Of a DNA stretch of 34,010 nucleotides, positions 11,258 through 18,914 are shown piece by piece. The notes beneath the pieces are model-generated. The model was not told the DNA's origin. It did no database searches and worked only from the letters and a program-made list of their open reading frames with translations. Position numbers and translations under genes: made by a program. This stretch comes from Actinomycetes bacterium (GTDB taxonomy: Bacteria > Actinomycetota > Acidimicrobiia > Acidimicrobiales > Ilumatobacteraceae): positions 1 to 34,010 of the forward strand of contig JANYDH010000133.1 in assembly GCA_025359865.1 (NCBI GenBank), in the 5' to 3' direction. Numbering within the stretch: position 1 is the stretch's first letter; the number at the start of each line of letters is the position of its first letter.

Positions 11258-13338
11258 GCACGATCAGCCTGTCCACCTCGTCAGCCGCGTCGTCCGCGTC
11301 GTCGAGCGAGAAGATCGCCCGGACCAGCCTCTCTCCTCCCTTGTCACGTTCGGCTTCATCGGCCGCTACCGATGGACACTTCGAACAGCAGCTTGCTGAC
11401 GCATTGGCCGGTCCCGTCGCTGACCGACCGACTGGGCCATCCGCCAGTCGCCAACTCGGCCAGCATGGCATTCCTGATCTCGACCGTCGGTCGAGCGAGT
11501 CGGGCCTTCGCATCGGCAGTGAGCGCCGTACCGAGGAACCTCCGGATCAGACCGAAGCCACCGGCAAGCCCGTGGACCACGCGATGAACCGCTCCAACGA
11601 TGCCACACCGTCTCGGTCGAAACGAGCGAAGCGAGACGACGCCGCAGGTATCGACCAGCACGACAACATGGCATCGGCGGCAGGGCAGGCGAATCGCAAC
11701 GGCCACCACGAGGACATGGCGTCGGTGACCGGCTTGGCACGTCGCGCCGACCAGGCGGGTCACGATGACGCTGGTGCCGACGCCGGCAATGGCAATGGAG
11801 CGGGCAACCCGGATGACGATGCGACAGACGGCTCGGCGATCGGTGCCGTCACGTCGGCCGCTCCCCCCTCCACGCCACCGACGGGCGACACGCTGGCCAC
11901 CGATGTGCTGCCAGTAGCGGCTGATGCCACGGCACCCGATGTCGTACCGGCGACGGTGGTATCGGCGACTGAAGGATCGGCGACTGAAGGATCGGCGACG
12001 GTGGTTCCCGCGACTGAAGGATCGGCGACTGGAGGATCGGCGACTGGAGGATCGGCGAATTTCGGATCGGCGACTGAAGGATCGGTGACTGTGGTGCCAG
12101 TGGCAGATCTACTGTCGGCAGCAGACGGTGTACCGACGGACGTCGTGCCAGACGCAGCAGTGCCGGCGGTCGAAGCGCCGGCCGCACGTGAATCCGCTGT
12201 GTCCACCACGGCTGGGCGCGTTGAAATCGCTGACAGAACGACGGTCGCCGGCGCAGCAATGACCCCGGCTGCCGATTCGCCCGCCGACAACGTACAGGTC
12301 GCGGCAGGCCCCGTTGGAGCAACAACGACGCCTACAACGATGCCTAGGCCCGCATCGCCTGCATCGCCTGCATCGCCCGCATCGCCCGCATCGCCCGCAT
12401 CGCCTGCATCGTCAACGTCAACGTCAACGTCAACGACAACGATGCCAGCGGCAACGAGCCAGGCAGCTCCGGCTGGGGCGACGGCTGACACGCCAACGCC
12501 GGATGTGGCGTCAGCGATGGCCGCACTGTCTGGCGTCGCAGTCACCAACGAAGAATCGGGTGCCGGCCGCGGGGCCCGGCGAACGTCGACGGCGCAACCA
12601 TCGGGCGACCTGACGCCAGCAGGTACCACGCCAGCAGGTACCACGCCAGCAGACACTACGCCAGCAGACACTACGCCAGCAGTAGCAGCACTTGTCGATG
12701 CGCTGGCGGCGGTCGGACGGGCCGGAACCCAGTCCGGCAGCAATCAACGTGAGGGCAGCACGGGCAGACAAGTGCCCGGCGGGACGGCGATGATGGCGAC
12801 CGCTGGAGTGTCCACTACTGCGGCGTTGGGTTCCACCGTCTCCACGCTCGCCACATCGGTGGGCGCCGGCCCCGACACAGCGAAGGCCGGTTCGGCGACC
12901 GCCTCGATGCAAGCGCCCGCACCCGGAACACATCGACCACCGTTGGGTCTCGTCGATACTCGACGGTTGGCGATCGACCTCGGCGATGAGGGCCTTGGAC
13001 CGCTACGGCTGCAGGCGCTCACCCAGGGTGGAACGCTGCACATGAGCCTGTCGGCGGCGGACCCGCTGGTCCGAGAAGCGCTCGTTCGGAACTCTTTCGA
13101 GCTGCGTCGCGATCTGGAGTCGGCGGGCGTCAATCTCGGCTCGCTCGATGTTGGCAACTTCGACCGGGGCCACCAAGGTGGAACGGCCGGCCAGCGTGAT
13201 GGCGACGCCGCTTCCATGCGCAGCAGCGGCGAACCCACTCGTCCGGGCGGCGACGGCGGTAGGTCTGCACGAAGTGGTTCCTCACGGTCGCTTCGGGGCA
13301 GTTCCACGGCCTCCAACAGCCTCGACCTGATGATCTGA
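11254..13338 (+). CDS. fliK: hook-length control protein FliK
   Basis: FliK is exported during hook growth, measures hook length and switches export specificity by contacting FlhB. The 694-residue product fits FliK: a long low-complexity N-terminal and middle part rich in Ala, Thr, Ser, Pro and Asp, and a compact conserved C-terminal domain (about residues 575-635). That domain contains LGPLRLQALTQGGTLHMSLS and VREALVRNSFELRRDLESAG followed by VNLGSLDV. The middle holds three blocks of tandem repeats (listed separately), which account for the size, larger than the usual 400-500. It is coupled to the previous gene by ATGA and followed 14 bases later by flgD. Confidence 0.88.
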   Translation: MSTISLSTSSAASSASSSEKIARTSLSPPLSRSASSAATDGHFEQQLADALAGPVADRPTGPSASRQLGQHGIPDLDRRSSESGLRIGSERRTEEPPDQTEATGKPVDHAMNRSNDATPSRSKRAKRDDAAGIDQHDNMASAAGQANRNGHHEDMASVTGLARRADQAGHDDAGADAGNGNGAGNPDDDATDGSAIGAVTSAAPPSTPPTGDTLATDVLPVAADATAPDVVPATVVSATEGSATEGSATVVPATEGSATGGSATGGSANFGSATEGSVTVVPVADLLSAADGVPTDVVPDAAVPAVEAPAARESAVSTTAGRVEIADRTTVAGAAMTPAADSPADNVQVAAGPVGATTTPTTMPRPASPASPASPASPASPASPASSTSTSTSTTTMPAATSQAAPAGATADTPTPDVASAMAALSGVAVTNEESGAGRGARRTSTAQPSGDLTPAGTTPAGTTPADTTPADTTPAVAALVDALAAVGRAGTQSGSNQREGSTGRQVPGGTAMMATAGVSTTAALGSTVSTLATSVGAGPDTAKAGSATASMQAPAPGTHRPPLGLVDTRRLAIDLGDEGLGPLRLQALTQGGTLHMSLSAADPLVREALVRNSFELRRDLESAGVNLGSLDVGNFDRGHQGGTAGQRDGDAASMRSSGEPTRPGGDGGRSARSGSSRSLRGSSTASNSLDLMI
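11948..12100 (+). repeat. tandem 15-bp repeats in fliK (ATEGS-type)
   Basis: About eight imperfect copies of a 15-base unit, GCGACTGAAGGATCG, encode ATEGS/ATGGS units interspersed with VVPAT. The unit is a multiple of 3, so copy-number changes keep the frame. Confidence 0.85.
12349..12437 (+). repeat. 9-bp (SPA) and 6-bp (ST) tandem repeats in fliK
   Basis: A run of the 9-base unit GCATCGCCY encodes consecutive Ser-Pro-Ala units, followed immediately by about four copies of TCAACG encoding Ser-Thr pairs. Both are in frame and close to exact, which suggests recent expansion. Confidence 0.85.
12612..12682 (+). repeat. tandem 15-bp repeats in fliK (TPAGT/TPADT)
   Basis: Four full copies of a 15-base unit ACGCCAGCAGNNACN encode two TPAGT and two TPADT units. 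The first two copies are identical and so are the last two, pointing to stepwise duplication. Confidence 0.85.
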
Positions 13339-13352
13339 TCGGAGGCGAATCG

Positions 13353-14036
13353 ATGTCTCTCCCACCGCTACGTATCAGTGCTGTCACCACTACCCCTCCG
13401 GGTACGTCGAACTCCGGTGGCACGCTTGGCTCGGGCACCGGCACGAAGACCGTCTTCGGAGCAGGCTCCACGAGTACTGCAAGTGCAGCCGGCCCAGCCG
13501 GGTTGGACCGCGAGGCGTTCCTCAAACTGCTTGTCGCTCAGTTGAGGTATCAGGACCCCAGTAAGCCGATGGATGCCTCGGCGATGATCTCGCAGTCTGC
13601 GCAACTGAGTGTCGTGGACAAGCTCGGCGAGATCTCGACCTCACTGCAGAAGTCGGCGGTGACCGACAAGTTGATCCTGGCAGGATCGGTGATCGGTAAG
13701 CAGATCACGTTCAACGGCACCGACGGCTATCCCGTGAGTCGCATCGTCAACTCGGTGCGCTTCGCTGATGACGGCAGCATGATTCTGAGCGCCACCGACT
13801 GGGATGTCCCGATGGACTCGGTCACCTCGATTTCGTCACCGGGCGGCACACCGCCTCCTACGGCACCGCCGGCGACAGGCACGACGGCACCGCCGGCGAC
13901 AGGCACTACGCCACCGCCGGTTGATCCTCCAACGACACCGCCGGTTGATCCTCCAACGCCACCGGCGGCTGACACGACGACGCCGCCGCCGGTTGACACG
14001 ACGACGCCGCCGACAGGCAGCCCGCCTGGCGTTTGA
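13353..14036 (+). CDS. flgD: hook scaffolding protein FlgD with Pro/Thr-rich tail
   Basis: FlgD caps the growing hook and is lost once the hook is complete. The 227-residue product has the conserved N-terminal region: GLDREAFLKLLVAQLRYQDP (about 50-69), then SKPMDASAMISQSAQLSVVD and KLGEISTSLQKS. Next is a short segment resembling the start of the C-terminal half (LAGSVIGKQITFNGTDGYPV). From about residue 165 the usual FlgD Ig/tudor-like C-terminal part is replaced by repeats such as PPATGTTAPPATGTTPPPV and TTPPVDPPTPP up to the stop. The start has GGAGG upstream, 14 bases after fliK. Low-complexity tails occur on several neighbours too. Confidence 0.92.
   Translation: MSLPPLRISAVTTTPPGTSNSGGTLGSGTGTKTVFGAGSTSTASAAGPAGLDREAFLKLLVAQLRYQDPSKPMDASAMISQSAQLSVVDKLGEISTSLQKSAVTDKLILAGSVIGKQITFNGTDGYPVSRIVNSVRFADDGSMILSATDWDVPMDSVTSISSPGGTPPPTAPPATGTTAPPATGTTPPPVDPPTTPPVDPPTPPAADTTTPPPVDTTTPPTGSPPGV
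13850..14030 (+). repeat. Pro/Thr-coding imperfect repeats at the 3' end of flgD
   Basis: In-frame duplications, for example CACCGCCGGCGACAGGCAC (two near-exact copies) and CCGCCGGTTGATCCTCCAAC (two copies), followed by two related GACACGACGACGCCGCCG units. They encode the proline/threonine tail of FlgD. Confidence 0.8.
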
Positions 14037-16651: not shown

Positions 16652-17392
16652 GTGAGCGATCGCGGTACTTCACGATCCGAACTGATGACGGCCGCTGAAG
16701 CGGCGGCGCTTGCTCTCGCACAGGCCTTTGGCCTAGGTGATGAGGCACGGATCGCGACCGACTGGCCGGTGGACGCGGGTGACGCCGTACTGCGCGCCGA
16801 GATCTCCGGTGAAACCACCGGCTCGATCGTGTTGGCCGTCAACGAAGAAGTCGCCGAACGTCTCGTCGGCAACACATCGGTGCTTGCAGAAGGGTTCACC
16901 AACGCGCTTCAAGCTGCCAGTCGTGCTCTGGGCTTCGACCTGACCGGTGGCGTGCCCGCCCAAGGTGACACGAGCGCACCCGCTGTGATCGTGGAGATTC
17001 TCGACGGCGGGCAACTCACTGCGCTCGCCGGTCTGACGCTGCCGATCGCAGACCCCGCTGCGCTGGCGGAGCCGCAAGGGTACGAGCCGTCGTCGTTCGA
17101 CCCCACGTTCGATGCAAAGGTCCTTTCGTCGGTCGTCGTGTCGGGATCGCTGGCGGTGCTGAACGATGTGGAGTTGGTGGTGACCGCCGAGTTGGGTCGC
17201 ACGACGATGCCTGTGCGAGATCTGCTCGGGCTCACGCCCGGCATGGTGGTCGAGATCGATCGTGCCGCTGGTTCGCCGATCGACCTGTTGGTCAACGGTC
17301 GCCGAATTGCAACCGGTGAGGTGGTCGTGATCGACGAGGAGTTCGGGATCCGGATCACCGAGATCGCCCCGATGGACGAGCGATCCCGTTGA
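16652..17392 (+). CDS. fliN: flagellar motor switch protein FliN with extra N-terminal domain
   Basis: FliN/FliY forms the base of the C ring. The C-terminal SpoA domain is clear at about residues 160-243: VLSSVVVSGSLAVLNDVELV, VTAELGRTTMPVRDLLGLTP, GMVVEIDRAAGSPIDLLVNG and RRIATGEVVVIDEEFGIRIT. The product has 246 residues, longer than short FliN (about 80-140). The N-terminal 135 residues (helical AAEAAALALAQAFG, then alternating strands such as GSIVLAVNEEVAERLVGN) resemble the CheC-like part of FliY, but the CheC phosphatase residues are not obvious to me. It starts at GTG 16652 with AGGAG upstream; the overlapping ATG at 16650 runs into a stop at once. Its 3' end merges into the 14-bp repeat array before fliO. 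Confidence 0.9.
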   Translation: MSDRGTSRSELMTAAEAAALALAQAFGLGDEARIATDWPVDAGDAVLRAEISGETTGSIVLAVNEEVAERLVGNTSVLAEGFTNALQAASRALGFDLTGGVPAQGDTSAPAVIVEILDGGQLTALAGLTLPIADPAALAEPQGYEPSSFDPTFDAKVLSSVVVSGSLAVLNDVELVVTAELGRTTMPVRDLLGLTPGMVVEIDRAAGSPIDLLVNGRRIATGEVVVIDEEFGIRITEIAPMDERSR

Positions 17393-17468
17393 GTGATGCC
17401 ACACATGCGACACCACACATGCGACACCAGATGAGTGACGCCAGATGAGTGACGTCAGATGAGTGACG
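17385..17468 (+). repeat. 14-bp tandem array across the fliN-fliO junction
   Basis: Six contiguous 14-base units: a decayed copy CCCGTTGAGTGATG (17385-17398) overlapping the fliN stop; two identical CCACACATGCGACA (17399-17426); two identical CCAGATGAGTGACG (17427-17454); and TCAGATGAGTGACG (17455-17468), whose ATG is the fliO start. Each unit from 17399 on carries an ATG. Since 14 is not a multiple of 3, successive ATGs fall in different frames. The ATGs at 17431 and 17445 open five-codon reading frames (MSDAR, MSDVR) that end in TGA overlapping the next unit's ATG. Confidence 0.9.
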
Positions 17469-17935
17469 TCGGTGTTGGAGCGCTACTCGTGCGGATGGTC
17501 GTCTCGTTGGCGGTCGTGCTCGCATTGGTGTTTGCGGCCTACGCTATCTTGCGTCGTCGCCAGGGGTTCTCCTCGGGTGGACTCGGTTCTGGACGCGCCG
17601 TGAAGTCCGCCCGCCGTGGCAGTCTGCTCCGGTCGAAGAGCGGCTCGTCGAGCAGCAAGGGCAGGGGACTCCGGGTTGTCGGGCGGATCGGCGTTGGCCG
17701 CACGGCCAGCGTCGTCGCTGTGCAGTTCGCTGATCGTGTGTTCATGCTCGGCGCTTCGGAGCAAGGCCCCCCGACCGTGTTGGCCGAGTTGGATCTCGAT
17801 GCCTGGAACAATGCGACGGAACCCCTTGAAGACCTTGCGCCGATCTCGCGTGCTGTGGGCGGTCCGCTGGCCGAGGGCGGCAAGCGGGCCGGTTTCGTCG
17901 ACGCACTGCGCGAGGCGACGACCCGTCGTGGCTGA
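17459..17935 (+). CDS. fliO: flagellar export accessory protein FliO
   Basis: FliO is a small membrane protein that helps assemble the FliP-FliQ-FliR export gate. The 158-residue product has one membrane segment near residues 8-28 (ALLVRMVVSLAVVLALVFAA), a basic, Gly/Ser-rich linker (residues about 30-65) and a soluble domain. That domain has the typical beta pattern RGLRVVGRIGVGRTASVVAV followed by FADRVFMLGASEQGPPTVLA, like the FliO family's phrase in which a shared property is stored as (V/L)xxxLGxKxxLxLVxVGxxxLLLG. The start at 17459 is the last ATG of the 14-bp array; ATGs in the earlier units are out of frame. It overlaps the fliP start by 8 bases. Confidence 0.87.
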   Translation: MSDVGVGALLVRMVVSLAVVLALVFAAYAILRRRQGFSSGGLGSGRAVKSARRGSLLRSKSGSSSSKGRGLRVVGRIGVGRTASVVAVQFADRVFMLGASEQGPPTVLAELDLDAWNNATEPLEDLAPISRAVGGPLAEGGKRAGFVDALREATTRRG

Positions 17936-18914
17936 CTTCCGCCACCAGGTCCTCCGGGTTGTCTCGGTGCTTGGTCTCGCCATTGCTGCAGCGACGGTGC
18001 TGTCGGTCTTCGCCGGGGTGGGGGAGGCGCATGCGTCACCGCCGACACCGCCGACGCCGATTCCCGTACCGTCGTTCCCTACTCCGTCGATCCCAACGCC
18101 GTCGATTCCCACGTCATCGATTCCGACTGCCGTGAACACGCCTCAGATTCCGGATCGGTTGGACCCGCCGGTTCCGACACCGCCGACGCCCGGCTCATCA
18201 GGTTCATCCGGATCTCCGGGCACTGGTACCGACGGCTCCTCGACTCCGAGCGCCACCTTGGATCTGAACTTGCCGGATGTCACACAGAAGACATCGAACT
18301 CGGTCGTCCTCATCCTGCTGCTCACCGTGTTGGCAGTGGCACCGAGCCTGCTCGTGCTGTGCACTTCGTTCACCCGTATCGTGATCGTGCTCGGCCTGAC
18401 CCGCAACGCGATCGGCATTCCCTCGATCCCGCCGCAACAGGTGATCGTCGGCCTCAGCGTGTTCCTCACACTGTTCGTCATGGGTCCGACCCTCGGTCAG
18501 ATGAAGACGGTGGCGCTCGACCCATTGCTCGACGGCAAGATCACTACCTCACAGGCATTCGAGAGGGTGCAGGTTCCGTTGCGCGGATTTCTACTCCAAC
18601 ACACTCGCGAGTCGGAACTGAAGCTGTTTCTCGACGCCTCCCACACAGCCACTCCTGTCGACCGCGACAAGGTGCCCCTGAACGCGCTGATCCCAGCGTT
18701 CGTACTGTCGGAATTGAAGAGCGCGTTCATCATGGGTTTCGTCATCTTCGTGCCCTTCCTCGTGATCGACCTCGTCGTCTCTGCGGTGCTGATGGGGCTC
18801 GGCATGATGATGCTGCCTCCATCGTTCGTGTCGCTTCCGTTCAAGCTGCTGCTCTTCATCATGCTCGATGGCTGGATGTTGGTCACCGGCATGTTGCTCA
18901 CCTCCTACAAATAG
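17928..18914 (+). CDS. fliP: flagellar export gate protein FliP with Pro-rich insertion
   Basis: FliP is the main subunit of the FliP5-FliQ4-FliR1 export pore. From GTG 17928 it has 328 residues, versus about 245 usually. Residues 1-36 form a signal peptide (LRVVSVLGLAIAAATVLSVF, ending AHA), as known for other FliP proteins. Residues 37-110 are a Pro/Ser/Thr-rich insertion with repeats such as PTPSIPTPSIPTSSIPT. From about 118 the classic FliP core follows: NSVVLILLLTVLAVAPSLLV, LCTSFTRIVIVLGLTRNAIG, IPPQQVIVGLSVFLTLFVMG, then LIPAFVLSELKSAFIMGFVI and MLPPSFVSLPFKLLLFIMLD. The start overlaps fliO by 8 bases, supporting translational coupling. The insertion is the odd part and would lie outside the membrane if the signal peptide works. 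Confidence 0.94.
   Translation: MADFRHQVLRVVSVLGLAIAAATVLSVFAGVGEAHASPPTPPTPIPVPSFPTPSIPTPSIPTSSIPTAVNTPQIPDRLDPPVPTPPTPGSSGSSGSPGTGTDGSSTPSATLDLNLPDVTQKTSNSVVLILLLTVLAVAPSLLVLCTSFTRIVIVLGLTRNAIGIPSIPPQQVIVGLSVFLTLFVMGPTLGQMKTVALDPLLDGKITTSQAFERVQVPLRGFLLQHTRESELKLFLDASHTATPVDRDKVPLNALIPAFVLSELKSAFIMGFVIFVPFLVIDLVVSAVLMGLGMMMLPPSFVSLPFKLLLFIMLDGWMLVTGMLLTSYK

Follow-up and report, generated by a model that had tools for sequence, protein, structure and literature searches.

A 14-bp tandem array between fliN and fliO and a putative ladder of ATGA stop-start overlaps in an Ilumatobacteraceae genome

The closest known counterparts of the array described here are the mycobacterial MIRUs, repeats at gene junctions carrying a small ORF with a 4-nt overlap between its stop and the start of the following gene, so that insertion need not break expression (PMC12548453). 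In the available text of the sources they are 40-100 bp long, interspersed and apparently mobile, with 41 sites in one strain (PMC2734929, PMC12548453). The fliN-fliO array resembles them in that its small ORFs, MSDAR and MSDVR, close in the next ATGA with a 4-nt overlap, but its unit is only 14 bp, outside the size range given for MIRUs (PMC2734929). MIRUs are also homologous, interspersed units, whereas most arrays sampled in the present genome have unrelated units, each apparently born in place, and the core of the fliN-fliO unit is common to two other loci while the remaining arrays that touch a stop codon are unrelated to it. Termination-reinitiation (TeRe) at gene pairs overlapping as ATGA (PMC6728339) is a further relative; the ancestral fliN/fliO junction was such a pair, and the present array differs in repeating the overlap to give a series of minicistrons. 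Like the M. tuberculosis fpg1 VNTR, it is a tandem array just upstream of a gene and is proposed to affect the expression level of that gene; that VNTR, however, has 55- and 79-bp units and an mRNA difference measured between strains, as far as the source is available (PMC2734929), while the fliO array is known from sequence alone.

The window, which is the whole 34,010-nt stretch of DNA analysed, is contig C217 of a 4.99-Mb, 219-contig assembly (G000), and Pfam identifies FliM, FliN and FliO in it. As the original prediction proposed, six contiguous 14-bp units (17385-17468, 84 bp in total) run from the fliN stop to the fliO ATG (Table 1). TRF calls the array with scores of 62, 78 and 79, and identity at lag 14 over 17385-17472 is 57/74 (0.77), above the best lag (7-30) in every one of 5000 dinucleotide shuffles (mean 0.38, maximum 0.55). 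The array was identified from assembled sequence; an assembly artefact is nonetheless unlikely because 84 bp fits within single reads. The last five units carry ATGs at 17405, 17419, 17431, 17445 and 17459, the last of which is consistent with the starts of the sister FliO proteins (MTDVSFVDLVVRM...) and is the fliO start on which the prediction had depended.

Table 1. Features of the fliN-fliO junction (window coordinates) and the other ATGA ladders; minicistrons are computed frames with putative translation.
Feature	Position	Strand	Description
fliN	16652..17392	+	ORF, Pfam FliMN_C 9e-25; start codon uncertain; stop TGA 17390-17392 inside first repeat unit
Unit 0	17385..17398	+	CCCGTTGAGTGATG, degenerate; contains fliN stop and TTG 17389
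Two A units	17399..17426	+	CCACACATGCGACA; at 17399 (ATG 17405) and 17413 (ATG 17419)
Two B units	17427, 17441	+	CCAGATGAGTGACG; each with ATGA
B' unit	17455..17468	+	TCAGATGAGTGACG; ATGA is the fliO start
Minicistron MPHMRHHTCDTR	17396..17434	+	TGA overlaps ATG 17431
Minicistron MSDAR	17431..17448	+	TGA 17446-17448 overlaps ATG 17445 as ATGA
Minicistron MSDVR	17445..17462	+	TGA 17460-17462 overlaps fliO ATG as ATGA
fliO	17459..17935	+	158 aa; Pfam FliO 1e-05; start in last unit
Ladder, G000:C22	L164:3924-3995		Four 17-bp units; frames MILTSL, MILTSP, MILTSP, MILTSP; enters 625-aa two-domain ABC-ATPase gene
Ladder, G000:C110			Period 8; MNR frames; between two GFO/IDH/MocA genes
Ladder, G004:C6			Period 11; MTAA frames; between MoxR-type AAA gene and TgpA-like transglutaminase gene

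Recomputing the frames bore out the description of MSDAR and MSDVR as B-unit frames whose TGA overlaps the next ATG, forming a ladder into fliO. The frames opened by GTG 17393, ATG 17396 and ATG 17405, just past the fliN stop, all end at the TGA of the first ATGA (17432-17434), and the frame ends at 17432, 17446 and 17460 each lie within an ATGA, which is the stop-start overlap of a TeRe pair. At the fliN stop itself the candidate partners for a hand-off are GTG 17393 or ATG 17396 nearby, or the TTGA at 17389; an unbroken stop-start chain from fliN to fliO can be drawn on paper. SD-like pairing is -4.7 kcal/mol ahead of 17445 and of 17459, weak and near the sampled median of -4.1, and ranges from -3.7 to -8.7 kcal/mol at the sister fliO starts. 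Ahead of the first B ATG at 17431 it is 0.1, i.e. none, and this missing pairing could weaken the chain at that step. An RNA switch or attenuator was considered and rejected, since folding of the 149-nt junction RNA does not surpass that of shuffled sequences (z -0.13; as good in 88 of 200), and a Rfam search of 17000-18200 up to an E of 0.1 gave zero matches.

The original prediction saw in the rotating ATGs a possible phase-variation device. The rotation is real among the copies, but fliO takes its frame from the last unit, whatever the copy number, and at a period of 14 the gain or loss of B units neither shifts that frame nor breaks the chain. Phase-variable simple repeats, such as those of the H. 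influenzae lic genes, are alike in being short, in standing in tandem and in placing ATGs in several frames close to where a gene begins. Repeat number shifts the frame of the target in repeats of that type, whereas at fliO the frame stays the same at any copy number. Because the fliO ATG sits in the last unit and the period is 14, there is no support for an on/off switch; a graded effect of the array on FliO dose is possible.

Comparison with relatives points to where the array came from. A scan of the fliN-fliO junction in named genomes covered ten loci. In three genomes of the same genus, G003, G002 and G004 (loci L153, L154 and L158, respectively), the fliN stop and fliO start share an ATGA and there is no array. 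The next ORF begins at the ATG of an ATGA in all of L153-L158 (ATGATG in L157), and the same holds for L160 and L161, which are more distant. At L159, which carries the label of another phylum, an ATGA precedes an unassigned ORF, and in L162 a fliO-like frame was not found. Looking at the junction in relatives had been proposed with the original prediction, and this comparison, run between species, found the array absent in 6/6 of the closest loci covered, all with a plain ATGA. Because these six related loci have the overlap without the array, the ancestral junction appears to have been copied in this lineage: a CGATGA fliN/fliO junction, 14 bp around the 4-nt overlap, would have been tandemly duplicated several times. 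TTG-AGT-GAT at 17389, in the unit with the fliN stop, aligns with ATG-AGT-GAC at the present start (17459), and unit 0 may thus be a relic of the ancestral fliO start (ATGA to TTGA), the ATG of this first copy having presumably been lost through a CGA-to-CGT substitution that leaves the Arg codon of FliN synonymous. The origin of the A units from B is less certain, since the two would have to be related through only 8/14 identical bases. Junctions of the ancestral kind are common raw material, because 143 of 624 co-directional gene pairs in the G000 sample overlap by 4 nt, 82 of the 143 as ATGA.

Whether such arrays are peculiar to this junction was addressed in samples of 1.16 Mb of G000 (of 4.99), 0.36 Mb of G003, 0.31 Mb of G004 and 0.2 Mb each of G016 and G022, with a filter of period 7-34, at least 2.4 copies and at least 90% match. 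Contigs were sampled by number, non-randomly, with C37, C50, C81 and C110 of G000 and several G003 contigs chosen for pattern matches, and genes were called by a codon log-odds script whose starts are uncertain. In the G000 sample the filter retains 36 arrays whose period is not a multiple of 3, and 34 of these are non-coding. Thirteen of the 34 touch a stop codon where random allowed placement predicts 2.2 (p 8e-8), and three touch a start, with 2.4 expected. The stop-touching number stays at 13 (of 33 or 34; p 7e-6 to 6e-10) when the gene threshold is varied between 6 and 25. The fliN-fliO array was counted as start-touching only, as its stop-bearing unit is degenerate, and an array at a PPK2 gene on C110, just below the match filter, is excluded from the 34. 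The 13 have periods of 7-19, involve TGA, TAG or TAA, and begin between -13 and +1 from the end of the stop; downstream of them lie a convergent gene (6), a co-directional gene (5) or, nearby, the end of the stretch (2). One array of this genome (L199:1782-1879, G000:C216) consists of nine copies of a TAG-holding 11-bp unit, the first at a TAG stop codon, and another (L063:1755-1855, G000:C30), lying between called genes, consists of 6.3 perfect copies of a 16-bp unit.

The sister samples are smaller and equivocal: non-coding arrays touch a stop in 2/7 cases in G003 and 2/2 in G004, both small samples, and G016 and G022 have one non-coding array each, neither at a stop. Seven of 14 G003 arrays were classed as coding; at a genomic G+C content of 70%, false gene calls may account for some of these. 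Occupancy by exact repeats within 45 nt after stops versus before starts is 3.0% vs 1.3% in G000, 2.6% vs 2.8% in G003, 0.9% vs 0.9% in G004 and 0.5% vs 0.0% in the outgroups; at the level of bases, the bias is thus seen in G000 only and is absent in G003 and G004. Arrays within genes have periods of 0, 1 and 2 mod 3 in 72, 1 and 1 cases, and therefore frame-breaking arrays are purged there. Stop-touching arrays (5, 5 and 8) show no preference, and non-coding G000 arrays at large include 16 of 1 mod 3 and 18 of 2 mod 3. Selection for stops in three frames was rejected as a cause: 9 of the 13 stop-touching G000 arrays have them, yet they are uninformative because any stop-containing array with a period not divisible by 3 has them by arithmetic alone, and there is no mod-3 preference.

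Period acquires a meaning once the repeated unit contains ATGA. If ATGA recurs with period p, an ATG shares its frame with the TGA lying k units further along whenever k*p+1 is a multiple of 3. A period of 2 mod 3 gives k = 1, and each frame closes in the following unit regardless of copy number; with p = 1 mod 3, k = 2 and closure skips to the unit after that one, which makes it dependent on parity; for p divisible by 3 no k closes the frame, and copies yield an N-terminal extension. A period of the last kind occurs in G003 (L082:1452-1516, C133), where a 15-bp ATGA repeat lies ahead of a gene and at its start, lengthens the N terminus by MSRNS repeats and makes no minicistrons. Three further ladders were found, with units unrelated to the fliO array (Table 1), and all 4/4 arrays that enter a gene start as ATGA ladders, fliO included, have p = 2 mod 3. 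Directly upstream of the G000:C22 ladder is a GC-rich hairpin followed by TTTT, terminator-like, with no called gene within 150 bp before it; the 625-aa protein encoded downstream is ABC-F-like by layout.

Searching five genomes of the genus for three ATGAs yielded 349 matches. Among near-identical, equal-period ATGA arrays, at least 42 have p divisible by 3, 17 have p = 2 mod 3 and 6 have p = 1 mod 3; the excess of 17 over 6 has a one-sided p of 0.017 at equal odds. The neighbouring genes are known for 6 of these 23 arrays with a period not divisible by 3. Of the five among them with p = 2 mod 3, four enter a gene and the fifth, at G003:C21, lies at the end of a gene whose neighbour is convergent; the sole 1 mod 3 array with known context (G003:C64, period 7) enters no gene. 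In G022 and G040 there is one array with a period not divisible by 3 (period 16) among the matches listed. A scan for start duplications recovered 2 of the 4 ladders as well as protein-extending arrays whose period is a multiple of 3, and no 1 mod 3 array. Titles and abstracts of the literature searched, with subscription papers mostly outside the search, contained MIRUs and VNTRs and neither stop-anchored minisatellites nor a 2 mod 3 rule.

In sum, the fliN-fliO array probably reflects minisatellite growth at an ATGA junction that is tolerated where the frame arithmetic keeps translational coupling intact. The raw material would be a high load of short minisatellites that start preferentially at stop codons in the sampled part of G000. 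Ribosomes ending at fliN would reinitiate stepwise along the chain (termination-reinitiation) and still reach fliO, a use of the chain that we infer because coupling is known at such junctions in the available sources (PMC6728339, PMC12548453), and expansion would be tolerated for that reason, with a net effect that is neutral or a modest change in FliO dose. Against this reading stands the G003:C21 array, which coupling cannot explain. A selectively empty minisatellite, in which growth at the stop is harmless, FliO has an independent start at a weak SD of its own and the ladder is a by-product of arithmetic, is rather unlikely in our judgement. It would accommodate the near-median pairing ahead of fliO, the lack of a period preference among stop-touching arrays and an RNA structure not beyond chance, but not readily the 2 mod 3 periods of all four gene-entering ladders and of 17/23 ATGA arrays, given the chance probability above. 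A bolder extension of the coupling reading, which we offer tentatively as possible though short of probable, is that the genus carries self-perpetuating stop-start ladders, born at ATGA junctions and selected before genes only if the period is 2 mod 3; such ladders would be kept because only then does coupling survive any copy number.

Two other accounts give the unit itself a role. If the array were a dose-tuning device, unit number would set FliO output through ribosome loss at each hand-off, and slippage would give heritable, selectable variants. The exact neighbouring units permit slippage, repeat length upstream of M. tuberculosis fpg1 is reported to track expression (PMC2734929), and Salmonella FliO supports FliP levels (PMC2947984), hence FliO dose could matter, as far as the available text of these sources goes. 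The original prediction placed such a device in the export-gate operon in particular, a specificity that did not hold up: arrays of the same make occur at unrelated genes in this genome and a sister genome, a distribution that points to a process at work across the genome, not to a flagellar device, and makes dose tuning improbable. We give still less credence to a dispersed repeat family, in which a 14-bp unit with the core GATGAGTG-CGCC- was copied between loci of the genus. Nearly the same core does occur in tandem at the 3' ends of the PPK2 gene (G000:C110:5022-5072) and of a FAD-linked oxidase gene (G003:C21:77850-77930), both with a convergent neighbour, and the exact period-14 GATGAGTG pattern is found at three loci in these two genomes and in none of the other 219 of 221 family genomes, 16 of which have scattered one-mismatch matches. 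Yet the unit at fliN is accounted for by the gene's own ancestral junction, and the other stop-touching arrays have unrelated units, with periods of 7-19 and TGA, TAG or TAA stops; a common mobile unit was rejected as a general cause on this ground. A crude comparison of 45 arrays found 15 pairs sharing an 8-mer (mean 4.0, maximum 8 in 30 shuffles that ignored dinucleotide bias), and the fliN-fliO array is absent from the 12 of these 15 pairs listed. Four single near-copies of the 14-mer lie elsewhere in G000, three within called genes and one (L003) across a called stop. The core shared by the three loci may reflect chance, a slippage-prone sequence or transfer.

If the frame rule holds, translational coupling leaves its footprint in the repeat periods at operon junctions, where sequence alone suffices to read it, and the naturally occurring series of hand-offs from stop to start would allow the efficiency of each reinitiation step to be measured. 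Should the reading of these ladders as a class be true, coupling would show itself as a mutational filter, and minisatellite birth would have its hot spots at stop codons. Elsewhere in the window, arrays with periods divisible by 3 encode repeat-rich protein segments inside fliK (11948-12441; Pfam Flg_hook) and in the 3' part of flgD (13860-14012).
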